DNA of 48,681 bases from Candidatus Falkowbacteria bacterium CG1_02_37_21 (GTDB taxonomy: Bacteria > Patescibacteriota > Patescibacteriia > Patescibacteriales > UBA12465): NCBI GenBank assembly GCA_001871165.1, contig MNUT01000027.1, positions 1-48,681 of the forward strand, given 5' to 3'. Under the pieces are notes generated by a model. That model saw only the letters and a program-made list of their open reading frames with translations, was not told where the DNA came from and did not search any database. The first letter of the stretch is position 1. Each line of letters opens with the position of its first letter. Below, piece by piece: positions 9,569 through 41,340 of the stretch. Made by a program: the position numbers and the translations under genes.

Positions 9569-12358
9569 ATGAATATTTTTGACTTTTTTGGCGATGCCAA
9601 TGAAAAAATTATAAAATCTCTACATCCCCTGACGCTCAAGGTTGATGGTTTTGAGGCGGAAATTAAGAAATTATCGGACGATGAGCTGAAAAATAAGACA
9701 GCGGAATTCAGGGATCGTCTGTCTAGGGGCGAAACTTTAGATGATTTATTACCGGAAGCTTTTGCGACTATGCGTGAAGCGGCTTGGCGTATTCTTAAAC
9801 AGCGACATTTTGATGTTCAATTAATTGGTGGCATTGTCTTGCACCGCGGGCAAATCGCGGAAATGAAAACTGGTGAAGGAAAAACCTTGGTAGCCACTTT
9901 GCCCCTTTATTTAAATGCTTTAGCCGGTAAGGGTGCACACTTGGTAACAGTGAATGATTACTTGTCACGTTTGGGAGCTGGTTGGATGGCCCCGGTTTTT
10001 CACGCCTTGGGAATGTCCACCGGAGTTATTGTTCATGACAATGCTTATGTTTATGATCCGGAACATAATGACGAGACTCAGTATGATAAACGCTTACAGC
10101 ATTTTCGTCGGATTCCTCGTCAAGAAGCTTATCTTTGTGATGTCACTTATGGTACCAACAATGAATTTGGTTTTGATTATTTGCGCGACAATATGGTCTA
10201 TTCTCTAGATCAAGCCGTCCAGCGTCCGCTTTATTATGCCATTGTTGATGAAATTGATTCTATTTTAATTGATGAAGCTCGTACCCCTTTGATTATTAGT
10301 GCGCCGGCGGAAGAATCTACCGATAAGTATTTTAAATTTGCGCAGATTGTCAGTCAGTTGAATGAACAGGATGACTATAATATTGACGAGAAAATGAAAG
10401 CTGCCACTTTAACTGAAGGAGGAATTAATAAAGTGGAGAAAATACTCGGTCTGGGTAATATTTATGTGGAAGCTGGTATTAAAGAAGTTCATCACTTAGA
10501 AGCGGCTCTTAAAGCTCGCGTTTTGTTTAAGAAAGATAAAGATTATGTAGTTAAGGACGGCGAGATTGTGATTGTGGATGAATTTACTGGTCGCATGATG
10601 CCGGGTCGTCGTTATAGCGAGGGCTTACATCAGGCGATTGAAGCTAAGGAAGGCGTGAAGGTTCAGAAAGAATCGCGGACCATGGCGACTATTACTTTTC
10701 AGAATTTGTTTCGTCTCTATACTAAATTATCTGGTATGACCGGTACGGCGGCTACGGAAGCGGAAGAATTTCATAAGATTTATAATTTGGAAACTATTAT
10801 TATTCCGACCAATAAACCTAATGACAGAAAAGATTTGAATGATTTAATTTATCGCACGGAAGAAGATAAGTTTTTAGCAGTGATTCGTGATATTAAGGAG
10901 CGGAGTGCTAAAGGCCAGCCGGTTTTAGTTGGTACAATTTCCATTGAGAAAAATGAAGTTTTGGCTGAACTGATGGAACGGGAAGGTTTGCGTCCGCAGA
11001 TGTTGAATGCTAAAAACCATCAAAGGGAAGCGGAAATTATTGCTCAGGCGGGACGAAAAGGGGCGGTTACTTTAGCGACTAATATGGCCGGCCGTGGTGT
11101 TGACATTATTTTAGGCGGTAATCCACCTGTAGAAGAGGAACAAGCGGAAATTAGAGCTGCGGGGGGCTTACACGTTGTTGGTACCGAGCGACACGAATCA
11201 CGTCGTATTGATAATCAGTTGCGAGGTCGCGCCGGTCGTCAGGGTGATCCCGGTTCTTCGCAGTTTTATGTTTCCACTGATGATGATTTAATGCGTATTT
11301 TTGGTGGCGATAGGATGAAGTCCTTGATGTCTACCTTGCAGGTGCCGGATGATATGCCAATTGAAAATAAAATGATTTCTAAATCTATTGAATCCGCCCA
11401 GAAAAAAGTGGAAGGAAATAATTTTGATATTAGAAAACATTTGGTGGAATATGATGACGTTATTAATAAGCATCGCATGGCGATTTATAAATTACGTCGA
11501 GAAATTTTAGAAACTTCGGAACAGGATGATACTATTGTGTTGGGTCAAGTAGTAGAAGAAAAAGCTCAAGAGCCGGTAGAAAAAGATAAAGCCATTGCGG
11601 AAAATAACACGGAGCCAGCTAATCGCAGTTTAGCGGAGATTGTTTTGGATATGGTGCGGGAGGAAATAACTAATGTGGTTAGTTTTCATAGCGCCGCCGA
11701 TCGACCTAGTGACTGGAATTTCAAAGAAATAGCAGAAACTATGCGAACGATTTGGACTACTAGTCCAGACTTGGAAGTTAAATTAAAAGAATTTGGTGAG
11801 AGCCCTAAGGCCCTAGAAGTTATTAAGAAAGATATTATTGATTATTTAGTGACGCTGGCTAAAGAAAAGTATGATACTCTGTCGGCTAGCTTTAAAGCCG
11901 CTAACTTAGAGTTTAAAGAAGTAGAAAAAGGAATCTTAATTCGTTCTATTGATCAGTTGTGGGTGGAACATTTAGAGACTGTGGACTATCTTCGTCGTGG
12001 TATTGGTTTGCGCGGTTACGGTCAGCGTAATCCTTTAGTGGAATATAAAAAAGAAGCTTTCCGTTTATACCGTGAACTTAATGGCCTGATTCATAAACAG
12101 GTGGTTTACTCTATTTATAAAACCGGTGACGCTTTAGTGATGGCCAAAGAACAGGAAATAAAATCTTTCGCTGAAGCTCCAGTAGAAAAATTAAATTTCA
12201 GTGGCGCCGTTAAGGAAATGCATAAGGAAGCGGCCGGACGCAATACCGTTGATCTCGTCCATGAAAAAGTGAAAGATGAAAGCGGCGAAAAAGTGGGTCG
12301 CAACGACCCTTGCCCTTGTGGTAGCGGTAAAAAATTTAAGCGCTGTCATGGCGCGTGA
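9569..12358 (+). CDS. secA: Preprotein translocase ATPase SecA
   Basis: SecA drives secretory proteins through SecYEG. The 929-residue protein has the full family layout: Walker A TGEGKT (about residue 100), DEID and the ILIDEARTPLIIS stretch (about 225-245), TGRMMPGRRYSEGLHQAIEAKE (split across about 338-358), the second nucleotide fold with TNMAGRGVDI and RRIDNQLRGRAGRQGDPG, and the C-terminal SEC-C zinc motif CPCGSGKKFKRCH at the very end. A Glu/Lys-rich insertion of about 35 residues (near 650-690) interrupts the helical scaffold region. Monocistronic placement is suggested by a 189-base upstream gap and a long hairpin just after the stop. It serves the secreted protease, lipoproteins and repeat protein seen in this window. 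Confidence 0.98.
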   Translation: MNIFDFFGDANEKIIKSLHPLTLKVDGFEAEIKKLSDDELKNKTAEFRDRLSRGETLDDLLPEAFATMREAAWRILKQRHFDVQLIGGIVLHRGQIAEMKTGEGKTLVATLPLYLNALAGKGAHLVTVNDYLSRLGAGWMAPVFHALGMSTGVIVHDNAYVYDPEHNDETQYDKRLQHFRRIPRQEAYLCDVTYGTNNEFGFDYLRDNMVYSLDQAVQRPLYYAIVDEIDSILIDEARTPLIISAPAEESTDKYFKFAQIVSQLNEQDDYNIDEKMKAATLTEGGINKVEKILGLGNIYVEAGIKEVHHLEAALKARVLFKKDKDYVVKDGEIVIVDEFTGRMMPGRRYSEGLHQAIEAKEGVKVQKESRTMATITFQNLFRLYTKLSGMTGTAATEAEEFHKIYNLETIIIPTNKPNDRKDLNDLIYRTEEDKFLAVIRDIKERSAKGQPVLVGTISIEKNEVLAELMEREGLRPQMLNAKNHQREAEIIAQAGRKGAVTLATNMAGRGVDIILGGNPPVEEEQAEIRAAGGLHVVGTERHESRRIDNQLRGRAGRQGDPGSSQFYVSTDDDLMRIFGGDRMKSLMSTLQVPDDMPIENKMISKSIESAQKKVEGNNFDIRKHLVEYDDVINKHRMAIYKLRREILETSEQDDTIVLGQVVEEKAQEPVEKDKAIAENNTEPANRSLAEIVLDMVREEITNVVSFHSAADRPSDWNFKEIAETMRTIWTTSPDLEVKLKEFGESPKALEVIKKDIIDYLVTLAKEKYDTLSASFKAANLEFKEVEKGILIRSIDQLWVEHLETVDYLRRGIGLRGYGQRNPLVEYKKEAFRLYRELNGLIHKQVVYSIYKTGDALVMAKEQEIKSFAEAPVEKLNFSGAVKEMHKEAAGRNTVDLVHEKVKDESGEKVGRNDPCPCGSGKKFKRCHGA

Positions 12359-12479: not shown

Positions 12480-12508
12480 TTGACAATCGTCTAATATTCG
12501 TCTATAAT
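12480..12508 (+). promoter_or_regulatory. Full consensus sigma-70-type promoter of the Fic gene
   Basis: TTGACA (12480-12485), 17 bases, TATAAT (12503-12508). Both boxes match consensus exactly, and the transcript would have a leader of about 22 bases before the ATG at 12538. Such a strong promoter suggests that the gene is held down by a repressor, probably through the direct repeats that overlap it. Confidence 0.8.
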
Positions 12509-12515
12509 GTGTCTA
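12487..12515 (+). repeat. Three direct repeats (TCGTCTA type) at 11-base period over the Fic promoter, operator-like
   Basis: TCGTCTA occurs at 12487-12493 and 12498-12504, with a third variant GTGTCTA at 12509-12515. The 11-base period is one helical turn, so all copies face the same side of the DNA. The array covers the spacer, the -10 box and the expected transcription start. Confidence 0.55.
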
Positions 12516-12537
12516 TAAGCACTAAGTAGATAATCTT

Positions 12538-13569
12538 ATGTTTAAGCCTAAATATACAATAACTAACACACTTTTGGGGAATATTAAACGCATAGCGGAA
12601 ATTGTTACTGATCTTAATAGCCGCAGTTTTCCCAAGCTTGTGCTCTTGGAAATGGAACGTCGCGCTCGGGAAATATCCGCCTATTCTTCTACTAGCATTG
12701 AAGGCAATCCTTTACCGTTAACGGATGTAAAAAGAATTCTGAAAAATAGACCAGAATATGTACGCGACTCCGAGAAAGAAGTGTTGAATTATAATAAGGC
12801 TCTAATAGAATTGAATGAACTGATAAATACGGAAAAAATTTCTTTTGACAACAATTATTTGGAAAAAATTCACAAAATAGTTATTGATGGTCTGATTGAA
12901 AAAAATCGTGCGGGCCATATTCGTCAGGAACCGGTTTTTGTTAATGATCCGAGTGCCGGGAAAACTATATATTGGCCACCCGATGAGCAAGACGTGATAT
13001 CTTTGCTTAATGACTTGTGGGAATTTTTGGAAAAAAATAAACAATCAATCGATCCTTTGATTTTGGCCGGTATTTTTCATAAACAGTTTGTGATTGTTCA
13101 TCCGTTTATTGATGGTAACGGTCGTACGGCACGATTGGCGACTAAAGTGTTGTTGGCAAAAATGGGCGTGAATACCTTTAATTTGTTCAGTTTTGAGAAT
13201 TATTATAATCAGAATGTTGCGCGTTATTTTAAGGAAGTCGGCCTGTTGGGTAATTATTATGACCTAAAAGATAAGGTTGATTTTACTGCTTGGCTGGAAT
13301 ATTTCACGGACGGAATTATTGATGAATTATTGCGGGTAGAAAAAGAGTTGGAGAAAGAAGCGGTTAATCCTGATACAGCACTGAAAGAATATCATCAAAA
13401 GATGATTAATTTTATTAAAGAAAAAGGTTTTATTACCGACAAGGATTATTCTAAGTTGACTGCTCGCGCTAAGCCGACCAGAAATTTAGATTTCAGAAAA
13501 CTTATTGACCTAGGAATTATTATCAAGATTGGTAAAGGCAAGGCGACTTATTATAAATTGCAATTATAA
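12538..13569 (+). CDS. Fic-domain protein AMPylator with N-terminal inhibitory motif and C-terminal winged-helix-like domain
   Basis: Fic enzymes transfer AMP (or another nucleotide group) from NTPs to hydroxyl side chains of target proteins. In this 343-residue protein the active site is intact: HPFIDGNGRTAR at 188-199, with catalytic His188. The class II N-terminal inhibitory motif (S/T)xxxE(G/N) is present as SSTSIEGN, with Glu55 expected to block the gamma-phosphate. The C-terminal 60 residues (YHQKMINFIKEKGFITDKDYSKL and on) look like a winged helix, as in Fic proteins that may bind DNA. It has its own consensus promoter with direct repeats, so autoregulation is plausible (inference). 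No antitoxin gene is adjacent; inhibition appears to be in cis. Confidence 0.93.
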   Translation: MFKPKYTITNTLLGNIKRIAEIVTDLNSRSFPKLVLLEMERRAREISAYSSTSIEGNPLPLTDVKRILKNRPEYVRDSEKEVLNYNKALIELNELINTEKISFDNNYLEKIHKIVIDGLIEKNRAGHIRQEPVFVNDPSAGKTIYWPPDEQDVISLLNDLWEFLEKNKQSIDPLILAGIFHKQFVIVHPFIDGNGRTARLATKVLLAKMGVNTFNLFSFENYYNQNVARYFKEVGLLGNYYDLKDKVDFTAWLEYFTDGIIDELLRVEKELEKEAVNPDTALKEYHQKMINFIKEKGFITDKDYSKLTARAKPTRNLDFRKLIDLGIIIKIGKGKATYYKLQL

Positions 13570-40284: not shown

Positions 40285-41325
40285 TTACAATATTCCTGCG
40301 CGAGTCTTTTTCTGGCGATCCGTTTCCAGGGTCGGCCAATCTTCTTTTAGTAGTCGTGCCTGTAGTCTCTCTTGAAATTTTGTTGCCGTCAAGTCTTTTT
40401 CCTTAGAGTCTAATAAGAATTTTTTTATTTTTTTTGATAAACTAAAAGTTTCAAAAATTCCGATATTTTGTCTGAGTCCTGATTTTATGAGGCGGGATTT
40501 TTTTAGGGGGACTAATTTTTGGTTAATAATTAGTTTAAGAGTATCTAATTTTAGGCGTAATGGTAGCTGGATTTTAAAAATTTTATTAAGAGTAGAGAGG
40601 GAGTCTGGTGCGGTGAGTGTGATTATCACTAGGCGGCCACTAGTAGCGACTTGGATAGCTTCAGTCAGCATATTTTTTTCATCACAGTCATCTACCGCAA
40701 TAATATCTACGTCATGTTGCCTAATTTTATTCCAATTAGAGATATTAAGGTTTAAATAATTTATACCGGCTAGAGAGGCACTAATATTTTTTGCTTTTTC
40801 AGTATTTTTTACTTCTTTGTCAAATAAATATATGTTTTTGTCCGTTTGCTTGATATCAGACAAAATGGCGTGCAGAGTAGCGCTTTTTCCATTACCGGCC
40901 GGGGCACTAATAACTATTAAACCGCGGCCGCGACGAATAGTTTTTTCAATTTTTTGGCGGTCAGTGGTTTGTAGGCCCAGTTGTTTAAAATACCAAGTAG
41001 GCGTGGAACGTCGGATAATATCAATAATTATTTTTTCCCCTTCAGCGGCCGGTAAAACACTGAGATAAAAATTTAAACGAAATTTAGGGTCATTAATCTT
41101 ATAATATTTTTTAGCGAGTAATTCTCCCTCCGTTAAACCCAAAATTTGTCGTAAATTTTCCAAAAAAGACTTCTCCAATTTCTTTGGGAAAGATAAGTCA
41201 CGTCGGATTTCATTAGGGAAGTTATAATGCAAAGCGACGCGATCTTTCTGGCTGGTGATTACCAGGCCGCTCGCCCCCTCGGCGTGTGCGTAATGAAAAA
41301 TATTGTTGACAATTTTTTTACTCAT
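40285..41325 (-). CDS. Degenerate PilB/GspE-like secretion ATPase paralogue
   Basis: This is a 346-residue protein with the architecture of type II/IV secretion ATPases but eroded motifs. The Walker A is present as APAGNGKSAT (Lys147), and an AVDDCDE segment (around 212) stands where the Walker B MVGEIRD would be. The N-terminal part has AHAEGASGLVI in place of the usual ASDIHIEP Asp box. The tetracysteine zinc site of PilB is absent, and the C-terminal region is short. It may be an inactive or altered ATPase. It heads a glycosylation operon rather than a pilus operon, which is unusual, and its promoter lies at 41335. Confidence 0.8.
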   Translation of the reverse strand: MSKKIVNNIFHYAHAEGASGLVITSQKDRVALHYNFPNEIRRDLSFPKKLEKSFLENLRQILGLTEGELLAKKYYKINDPKFRLNFYLSVLPAAEGEKIIIDIIRRSTPTWYFKQLGLQTTDRQKIEKTIRRGRGLIVISAPAGNGKSATLHAILSDIKQTDKNIYLFDKEVKNTEKAKNISASLAGINYLNLNISNWNKIRQHDVDIIAVDDCDEKNMLTEAIQVATSGRLVIITLTAPDSLSTLNKIFKIQLPLRLKLDTLKLIINQKLVPLKKSRLIKSGLRQNIGIFETFSLSKKIKKFLLDSKEKDLTATKFQERLQARLLKEDWPTLETDRQKKTRAGIL

Positions 41326-41334
41326 ATTGTTATA

Positions 41335-41340
41335 ATTATA
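41335..41340 (-). promoter_or_regulatory. Extended -10 of the PilB-like / glycosylation operon, near-leaderless
   Basis: On the minus strand TGC-TATAAT (hexamer 41340-41335) stands nine bases before the ATG at 41325. The -35 (TTTAAA, 41363-41358) has four matches to consensus. Confidence 0.55.

Follow-up and report, generated by a model that had tools for sequence, protein, structure and literature searches.

To our knowledge, it is largely unanswered why a winged helix is so common among Fic proteins, and we know of few with a defined DNA site. Numerous Fic proteins of bacteria act as toxins in type II toxin–antitoxin pairs, and FICD/HYPE is a eukaryotic enzyme of the endoplasmic reticulum. 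The locus described here is a fic gene of Candidatus Falkowbacteria bacterium CG1_02_37_21 whose promoter carries three direct repeats; it lies in a stretch of 48,681 nucleotides (nt), positions 1 to 48,681 of contig MNUT01000027.1, which was analyzed as a whole and is called the window. Campylobacter provides an example of a Fic protein in a toxin–antitoxin pair (PMC5651007). Among the class II Fic proteins, CccR of Yersinia pseudotuberculosis has a C-terminal helix–turn–helix (HTH) and represses its own promoter near the −35 and −10 elements; it binds as a dimer to two inverted repeats 26 bp apart and is in addition a secreted effector of the type VI secretion system that AMPylates FtsZ (PMC9755527). 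In the case of CbFic2 of Coxiella burnetii, DNA switches a monomeric AMPylase to a dimeric deAMPylase; this protein was studied on random DNA, without definition of a cognate operator (PMC10628234). The same paper states that DNA binding by SoFic has not yet been demonstrated (PMC10628234).

From the sequence comparisons presented below we consider it highly likely that the fic gene of the window is a stand-alone, self-repressing class II Fic gene whose own winged helix reads the three repeats of its promoter. The gene encodes 343 amino acids of the Fic AMP-transferase family (12538..13569, as judged from the open reading frame (ORF), the Pfam Fic match, the sequence motifs and the AlphaFold2 model) and, like all features given with coordinates for the promoter and gene, is located on the forward strand. 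Its promoter is an exact TTGACA-17-TATAAT (12480–12508) with the −35 hexamer at 12480..12485 and the −10 hexamer at 12503..12508. The exact sequence TTGACA-N15..19-TATAAT is found at two sites in the window, and only the fic promoter has the 17-bp spacer (0.07 expected from shuffles); the second pair at 41306–41336 has a spacer of 19 bp. Three candidate operator units start at 12487, 12498 and 12509, the period thus being exactly 11 bp twice. Unit 1 (TCGTCTA, 12487..12493) lies within the promoter spacer, unit 2 (TCGTCTA, 12498..12504) shares its last two bases with the first two of the −10 hexamer, and unit 3 (GTGTCTA, 12509..12515), which is imperfect with five of seven letters, lies over the expected transcription start, 22 nt from the start codon. 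A preliminary description of this DNA had already pointed out a perfect consensus promoter, among the strongest in the window, overlaid by three TCGTCTA-type repeats with an 11-base period, and both observations hold. Taken singly, the word TCGTCTA is about as frequent in the window as expected by chance (5 found versus 3.8 expected), and the three-unit array with up to three mismatches occurs once versus none in 100 shuffles. Since this three-unit search pattern was derived from the array itself, the counts obtained with orthologues are the real test.

A scan of genome contigs gave 80 loci, to which 12 full-length proteins with at least 63% identity from the genomes of relatives were added. 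Having removed 8 identical proteins and added the window, we obtained 85 distinct orthologues which are 52–100% identical to the window protein. The protein alignment comprises 84 of these, as L111 was dropped because of an internal stop; in this orthologue there is one in-frame stop within the Fic domain, and the array and the winged helix are still present. The array was scored over two units with 12 fixed letters and a threshold of at least 10/12. At this threshold it is found upstream of 83 of the 85 orthologues versus 9 of 1700 dinucleotide shuffles and none of 295 other ORFs of the same loci, these control ORFs having been picked mechanically (at least 150 amino acids, first ATG) and including some false genes. 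The best spacing of the units is 11 bp in all 85 cases (free choice between 8 and 14 bp, ties assigned to 11). Of the 84 orthologous arrays, 54 keep at least five of six letters of the −35 hexamer and 71 keep at least five of six of the −10 hexamer. The consensus of promoter and array is TTGAcAATCGTCTAaTAaTCGTCTATaATtaGtCTA, and the promoter in the window is therefore one instance of a conserved promoter–operator. Counting both orientations, a third unit that matches five or more of six letters is present in 52 of 83 arrays; the direct form (5 or 6 of 6 fixed letters) is found in 44 and the inverted form fits better in 8. Unit 3 is inverted in L107–L111 from Anaerolineae and other Chloroflexota, where together with unit 2 it forms the palindrome TCGTCTA-TAAT-TAGACGA. 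In two orthologues (L083 and L091) the array and the start codon are about 40–50 bases farther apart, and the third unit (TACGTCTA) is repeated at the ATG, which looks as though a short insert had duplicated its target.

For an independent set a protein profile was run against 379 genomes of the phylum, the DNA being ignored, and members were detected in 29 genomes. Beyond the window and L005 there were 27 loci, of which 9 repeat earlier proteins, leaving 18 new members. The array reaches at least 10/12 in 13 of the 18 and at least 9 in 16. One of the two lowest scorers, L394, has by eye three 11-bp units with a changed word (TTAGTCA, TTAGGCA, TTAGTCA) before the ATG; in its helix Ser replaces both A311 and T314, which are invariant in the 84 aligned orthologues. 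The preliminary description had made its proposal depend on the presence of the array upstream of orthologues, and there it is found in both sets.

The site is moreover nearly exclusive to fic. In the own genome (an assembly of 0.70 Mb in 32 contigs) the exact two-unit pattern occurs once; when two mismatches are allowed there are 6 sites versus 3 for the reversed control, and two of the 6 are the fic array. Across 60 genomes, the own genome included, the exact pattern is present at 13 places in 12 genomes, all of them at fic or a fic remnant: in 11 genomes it belongs to the fic orthologue, and the other two places are overlapping copies in G015, next to a fic remnant that is broken. At this remnant (L247, G015:C62:24119-24274) three perfect units stand beside a winged-helix coding piece, and the ATG frame is broken. 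The relaxed pattern TCGNCTA-N4-TCGNCTA is found at 40 places in the 35 orthologue-bearing genomes, 38 of which are directly upstream of fic. Viral contigs contain at least 120 stretches with the exact two-unit pattern, most of which are expected by chance, given 14 fixed bases and a large collection; a profile search of viral contigs gave one close member (L281, residues 180–342, 69%), which is cut at the contig edge, and otherwise distant Fic proteins. On plasmids, Fic proteins are found in 892 records, but all of them are distant, with less than 60% identity. Because the site travels with fic and is nearly exclusive to it, the locus looks like a self-contained one-gene circuit, which would work in many hosts, mostly uncultured Patescibacteria.

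The part of the protein that would read the repeats is the predicted C-terminal winged helix (residues 284–343, 13387..13566). The AlphaFold2 model of the full-length protein (predicted local distance difference test, pLDDT, 89.7) has helices at residues 284–296, 301–307 and 312–324 and strands at 328–331 and 338–341, the helix 312–324 (13471..13509) being the predicted recognition helix. Residues 280–343 modeled alone give the same fold with a pLDDT of 95.5, in agreement with the winged-helix-like domain that the preliminary description had assigned to the C-terminus and on whose helix–turn–helix fold its proposal also depended. This domain matches winged helices of the ArsR, MarR, MecI and DIP2311 types in the PDB with Z scores of about 9.4–10.8 over 59–64 residues and a root-mean-square deviation (rmsd) of 1.6–2.4 (VIA-align). 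A Foldseek search with the domain alone gave no match at E ≤ 0.001, the best being 2.4e-3 (DIP2311), as can be expected because the fold is small and common, and a winged-helix profile gave only weak matches to PDB sequences (best E 0.011).

At base 4 of the repeat all four letters are found across the orthologues. Among all 343 residues the best predictor of this base is residue 316 (Asn316 in the window, codon 13483..13485). It belongs to the predicted recognition helix and accounts for 78 of 78 unambiguous orthologues, and the next-best alignment column reaches 92%. A T at base 4 goes together with N (36), A (16) or S (7) at residue 316, and A, C or G with T (10), R (6), I (2) or V (1); counted by units, T is found in 0 of 53 units when residue 316 is T, R, I or V. 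Both traits change 9 times on a tree of residues 1–276, from which the winged helix is excluded. When traits matched in frequency and number of changes were simulated on this tree (281 simulations at the lowest rate and 61 with other rates), no protein column reached 100%, the highest value being 96%. The rule is obeyed by 11 of the 12 members of the independent set that can be scored; a thirteenth member has no winged helix in its frame. We infer that residue 316 contacts base 4, covariation being the pattern expected of such a contact. That the Fic protein may bind its own promoter, as the preliminary description had suggested, is strongly supported by the conservation of the array, the predicted winged helix and this covariation, and the protein very probably reads the repeats to control its own production.

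We picture the regulation as follows. The C-terminal winged helix would bind its own promoter at the three repeats, which are in phase at 11 bp. As direct repeats with a spacing of one helical turn, they imply side-by-side subunits and not one two-fold dimer; three head-to-tail subunits would sit on one face of the DNA and cover the spacer, the −10 hexamer and the start site. The bound protein would shut out RNA polymerase, so that the strong promoter would fire only while the Fic protein is scarce.

With regard to the enzyme itself, the window protein scores 66.8 bits with the Pfam Fic model (cut-off 24). The catalytic motif of class II Fic proteins, HPFx[D/E]GNGRxxR, is present as HPFIDGNGRTAR at residues 188–199 (13099..13134), and the inhibitory motif [S/T]xxxE[G/N] is found N-terminal of the Fic core as S51-T-S-I-E55-G56 (12688..12705), as had been noticed in the preliminary description. 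H188, P189, D192–R196 and R199 as well as S51, E55 and G56 are invariant in the 84 aligned orthologues, from which it follows that selection maintains both the catalytic and the inhibitory residues. The protein is best read, on these motifs, as a class II Fic AMP-transferase which would be inhibitable via the N-terminal Glu55. With the SoFic model of NCBIfam (NF046030) it scores 69.1 bits, far below the cut-off of 550, and with the Pfam models Fic_N and DIP2311-like_C it remains under the cut-off. That AMPylation is coupled to the autoregulation of fic, as the preliminary description had further proposed, is plausible, given the invariant catalytic and inhibitory residues and the precedent of CbFic2. 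The operator might in addition be an assembly platform, where three head-to-tail Fic subunits would come together with the enzyme silenced or deAMPylating; fic and its operator would then be a portable switch which senses its own amount and couples AMPylation to transcription, and this plan would recur across Fic–winged-helix families with clade-specific words. We put this forward tentatively and regard it as rather doubtful.

Related arrays are present in other Fic clades. In a sister clade with about 35% identity to the window protein (L016, L017 and L251–L258) there are three TTGCGCGATTC-like words about 11 bp apart. The fixed-register scores are 20–30 of 30 with shuffle maxima of 18–22; L252 is narrowly above its shuffles and L258 is not above them. 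Two sister clades thus have in common an arrangement of three 11-bp repeats and differ in the word used. The distant clades L268–L280 have no such three-repeat array. In another Fic clade (L020, L021, L023, L029 and L031) repeated ATATAATC- or TTGGATATA-like words are found upstream which are, by eye, partly inverted and located over the likely promoter, and the promoters upstream of the Fic proteins L026 and L028 may, by eye, be overlaid by an inverted repeat, GATATAAACTA...TAGTTTATATC. Each Fic–winged-helix clade may have its own operator. The own genome also encodes a second, distant Fic protein (L002, G000:C24:7539-7847, a frame of 409 amino acids), and upstream of it there are two to three CTAGACCGATTA-like words with a spacing of about 12 bp.

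Several points weigh against autorepression through the array. Two orthologues are below the threshold: L088, which lies close to the end of a contig, does not have the normal start of the gene, and L096 scores 9. The 78 orthologues used for the residue 316 rule exclude five mixed arrays and also L088 and L111, and for single units the rule is not strict, T being found in 147 of 163 units with N, A or S. The well-supported branches of the tree give only 4 independent pairs, all 4 of them concordant (sign test p 0.125), and one of the 12 scorable arrays of the independent set is mixed (L385). Furthermore, most records are metagenome-assembled and some of the organism labels may be wrong due to binning errors. 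Finally, the array is located farther upstream, over the −35 region, in two Melainabacteria (L068 and L082) and in the sister clade. An activator could sit just there, over or upstream of the −35 hexamer, and activation may still operate through these upstream-placed arrays. Nevertheless, it seems improbable to us that Fic binds the array to activate, or that it can act in both ways according to its occupancy or AMPylation state: in the window and in most members the units lie on the spacer, the −10 hexamer and the start of a near-consensus promoter, where a bound protein would block the polymerase, and CccR, the measured relative, acts as a repressor.

The presence of the array at one gene per genome could also be the result of a dedicated regulator encoded elsewhere in the host, the winged helix of Fic then serving a different job. 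According to the records the hosts are many candidate phyla of the Patescibacteria, including Falkowbacteria and Uhrbacteria, and in addition 11 Chloroflexota, 2 Melainabacteria, 2 Myxococcota (titled Deltaproteobacteria), one WOR-1 and one labelled Woesearchaeota. Judged by its relatives, the source of the window probably belongs to the candidate phyla radiation. An unlinked regulator is hard to reconcile with an array that goes with the gene into candidate phyla, Chloroflexota, Melainabacteria and the two metagenome-assembled genomes labelled Deltaproteobacteria without a conserved neighbour of at least 70 amino acids, and with an operator base that is tracked by residue 316 inside Fic; we therefore give this explanation little credit.

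The start codon overlaps unit 3 or is at most 3 nt away in 44 of 84 orthologues, which suggests leaderless messages in these cases and might point to a role of the repeats in the mRNA leader, that is, in RNA or translation. Alternatively the repeats could be mere promoter letters. Both possibilities are very improbable: the distance from the array to the start codon varies widely while the spacing within the array stays at 11 bp, bases outside the −35 and −10 hexamers, the TCG of units 1 and 2 among them, are 95–100% conserved, and base 4 covaries with the predicted DNA-binding helix.

The immediate neighbours of the 85 fic genes comprise 164 ORFs of at least 70 amino acids which fall into 150 clusters, the largest having 3 members, and hence no partner gene of this size travels with fic. 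An adjacent conserved antitoxin gene was not found among these 164 neighbours, smaller ORFs not having been examined. A classical type II toxin–antitoxin operon repressed by a separate antitoxin, which the many Fic toxins of such pairs, as in the Campylobacter example, would bring to mind, can practically be dismissed, as there is no conserved neighbour of at least 70 amino acids and the inhibitory motif is invariant and in the same chain. In the window the gene order is secA (9569–12358), fic (12538–13569), a methyltransferase-like ORF and ileS, where secA and ileS are what we take these genes to be from their sequence. For an empty-site comparison we inspected G011, in which the methyltransferase and ileS genes are adjacent; neither fic nor secA was matched upstream of the methyltransferase gene, and no insertion boundary could be defined.

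Among the closest full-length folds to the window protein are SoFic (SO_4266; 3eqx, 3zcn, 3zec) and the Fic protein Dde_2494 (4rgl), with Z 30.4 over 309 residues and an rmsd of 9.4 for 4rgl and Z 27.1 over 288 residues and an rmsd of 4.6 for 3zcn; the sequence identity is just 16–22%. FICD/HYPE shares the Fic core and the inhibitory helix (Z 26–28, about 240–250 residues, rmsd about 2.1–2.5), and this match ends at about residue 280 of the window protein, leaving the winged helix outside. CbFic2 (structure 8cil) has a matching fold and likewise combines an inhibitory Glu with a C-terminal HTH, but it was bound as a dimer to random DNA, whereas for the window protein an operator of three repeats is predicted. 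The comparison with CccR shows in both cases a C-terminal DNA-binding domain (a predicted winged helix in the window protein) and a repeated site, operator-like in the window, over the own promoter; in contrast to the two inverted repeats of CccR with their 26-bp spacer, there are three direct repeats with an 11-bp period in the window. No report of the repeat array of the fic promoter was found in the open-licence literature, subscription papers not being covered. Comparative sequence analysis alone shows what the site is, where on the promoter it lies and with which period it repeats, and it yields a recognition rule of one residue and one base; this rule is testable with a single small protein and DNA duplexes of short length. 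The fic gene and its array are also a clean system to ask whether DNA binding controls AMPylation, which is the most interesting question. To sum up, autorepressing Fic–HTH proteins are already known from CccR, there with a different operator; what is new is the arrangement as three direct repeats, the rule that links one residue to one base, and the wide occurrence among candidate phyla.
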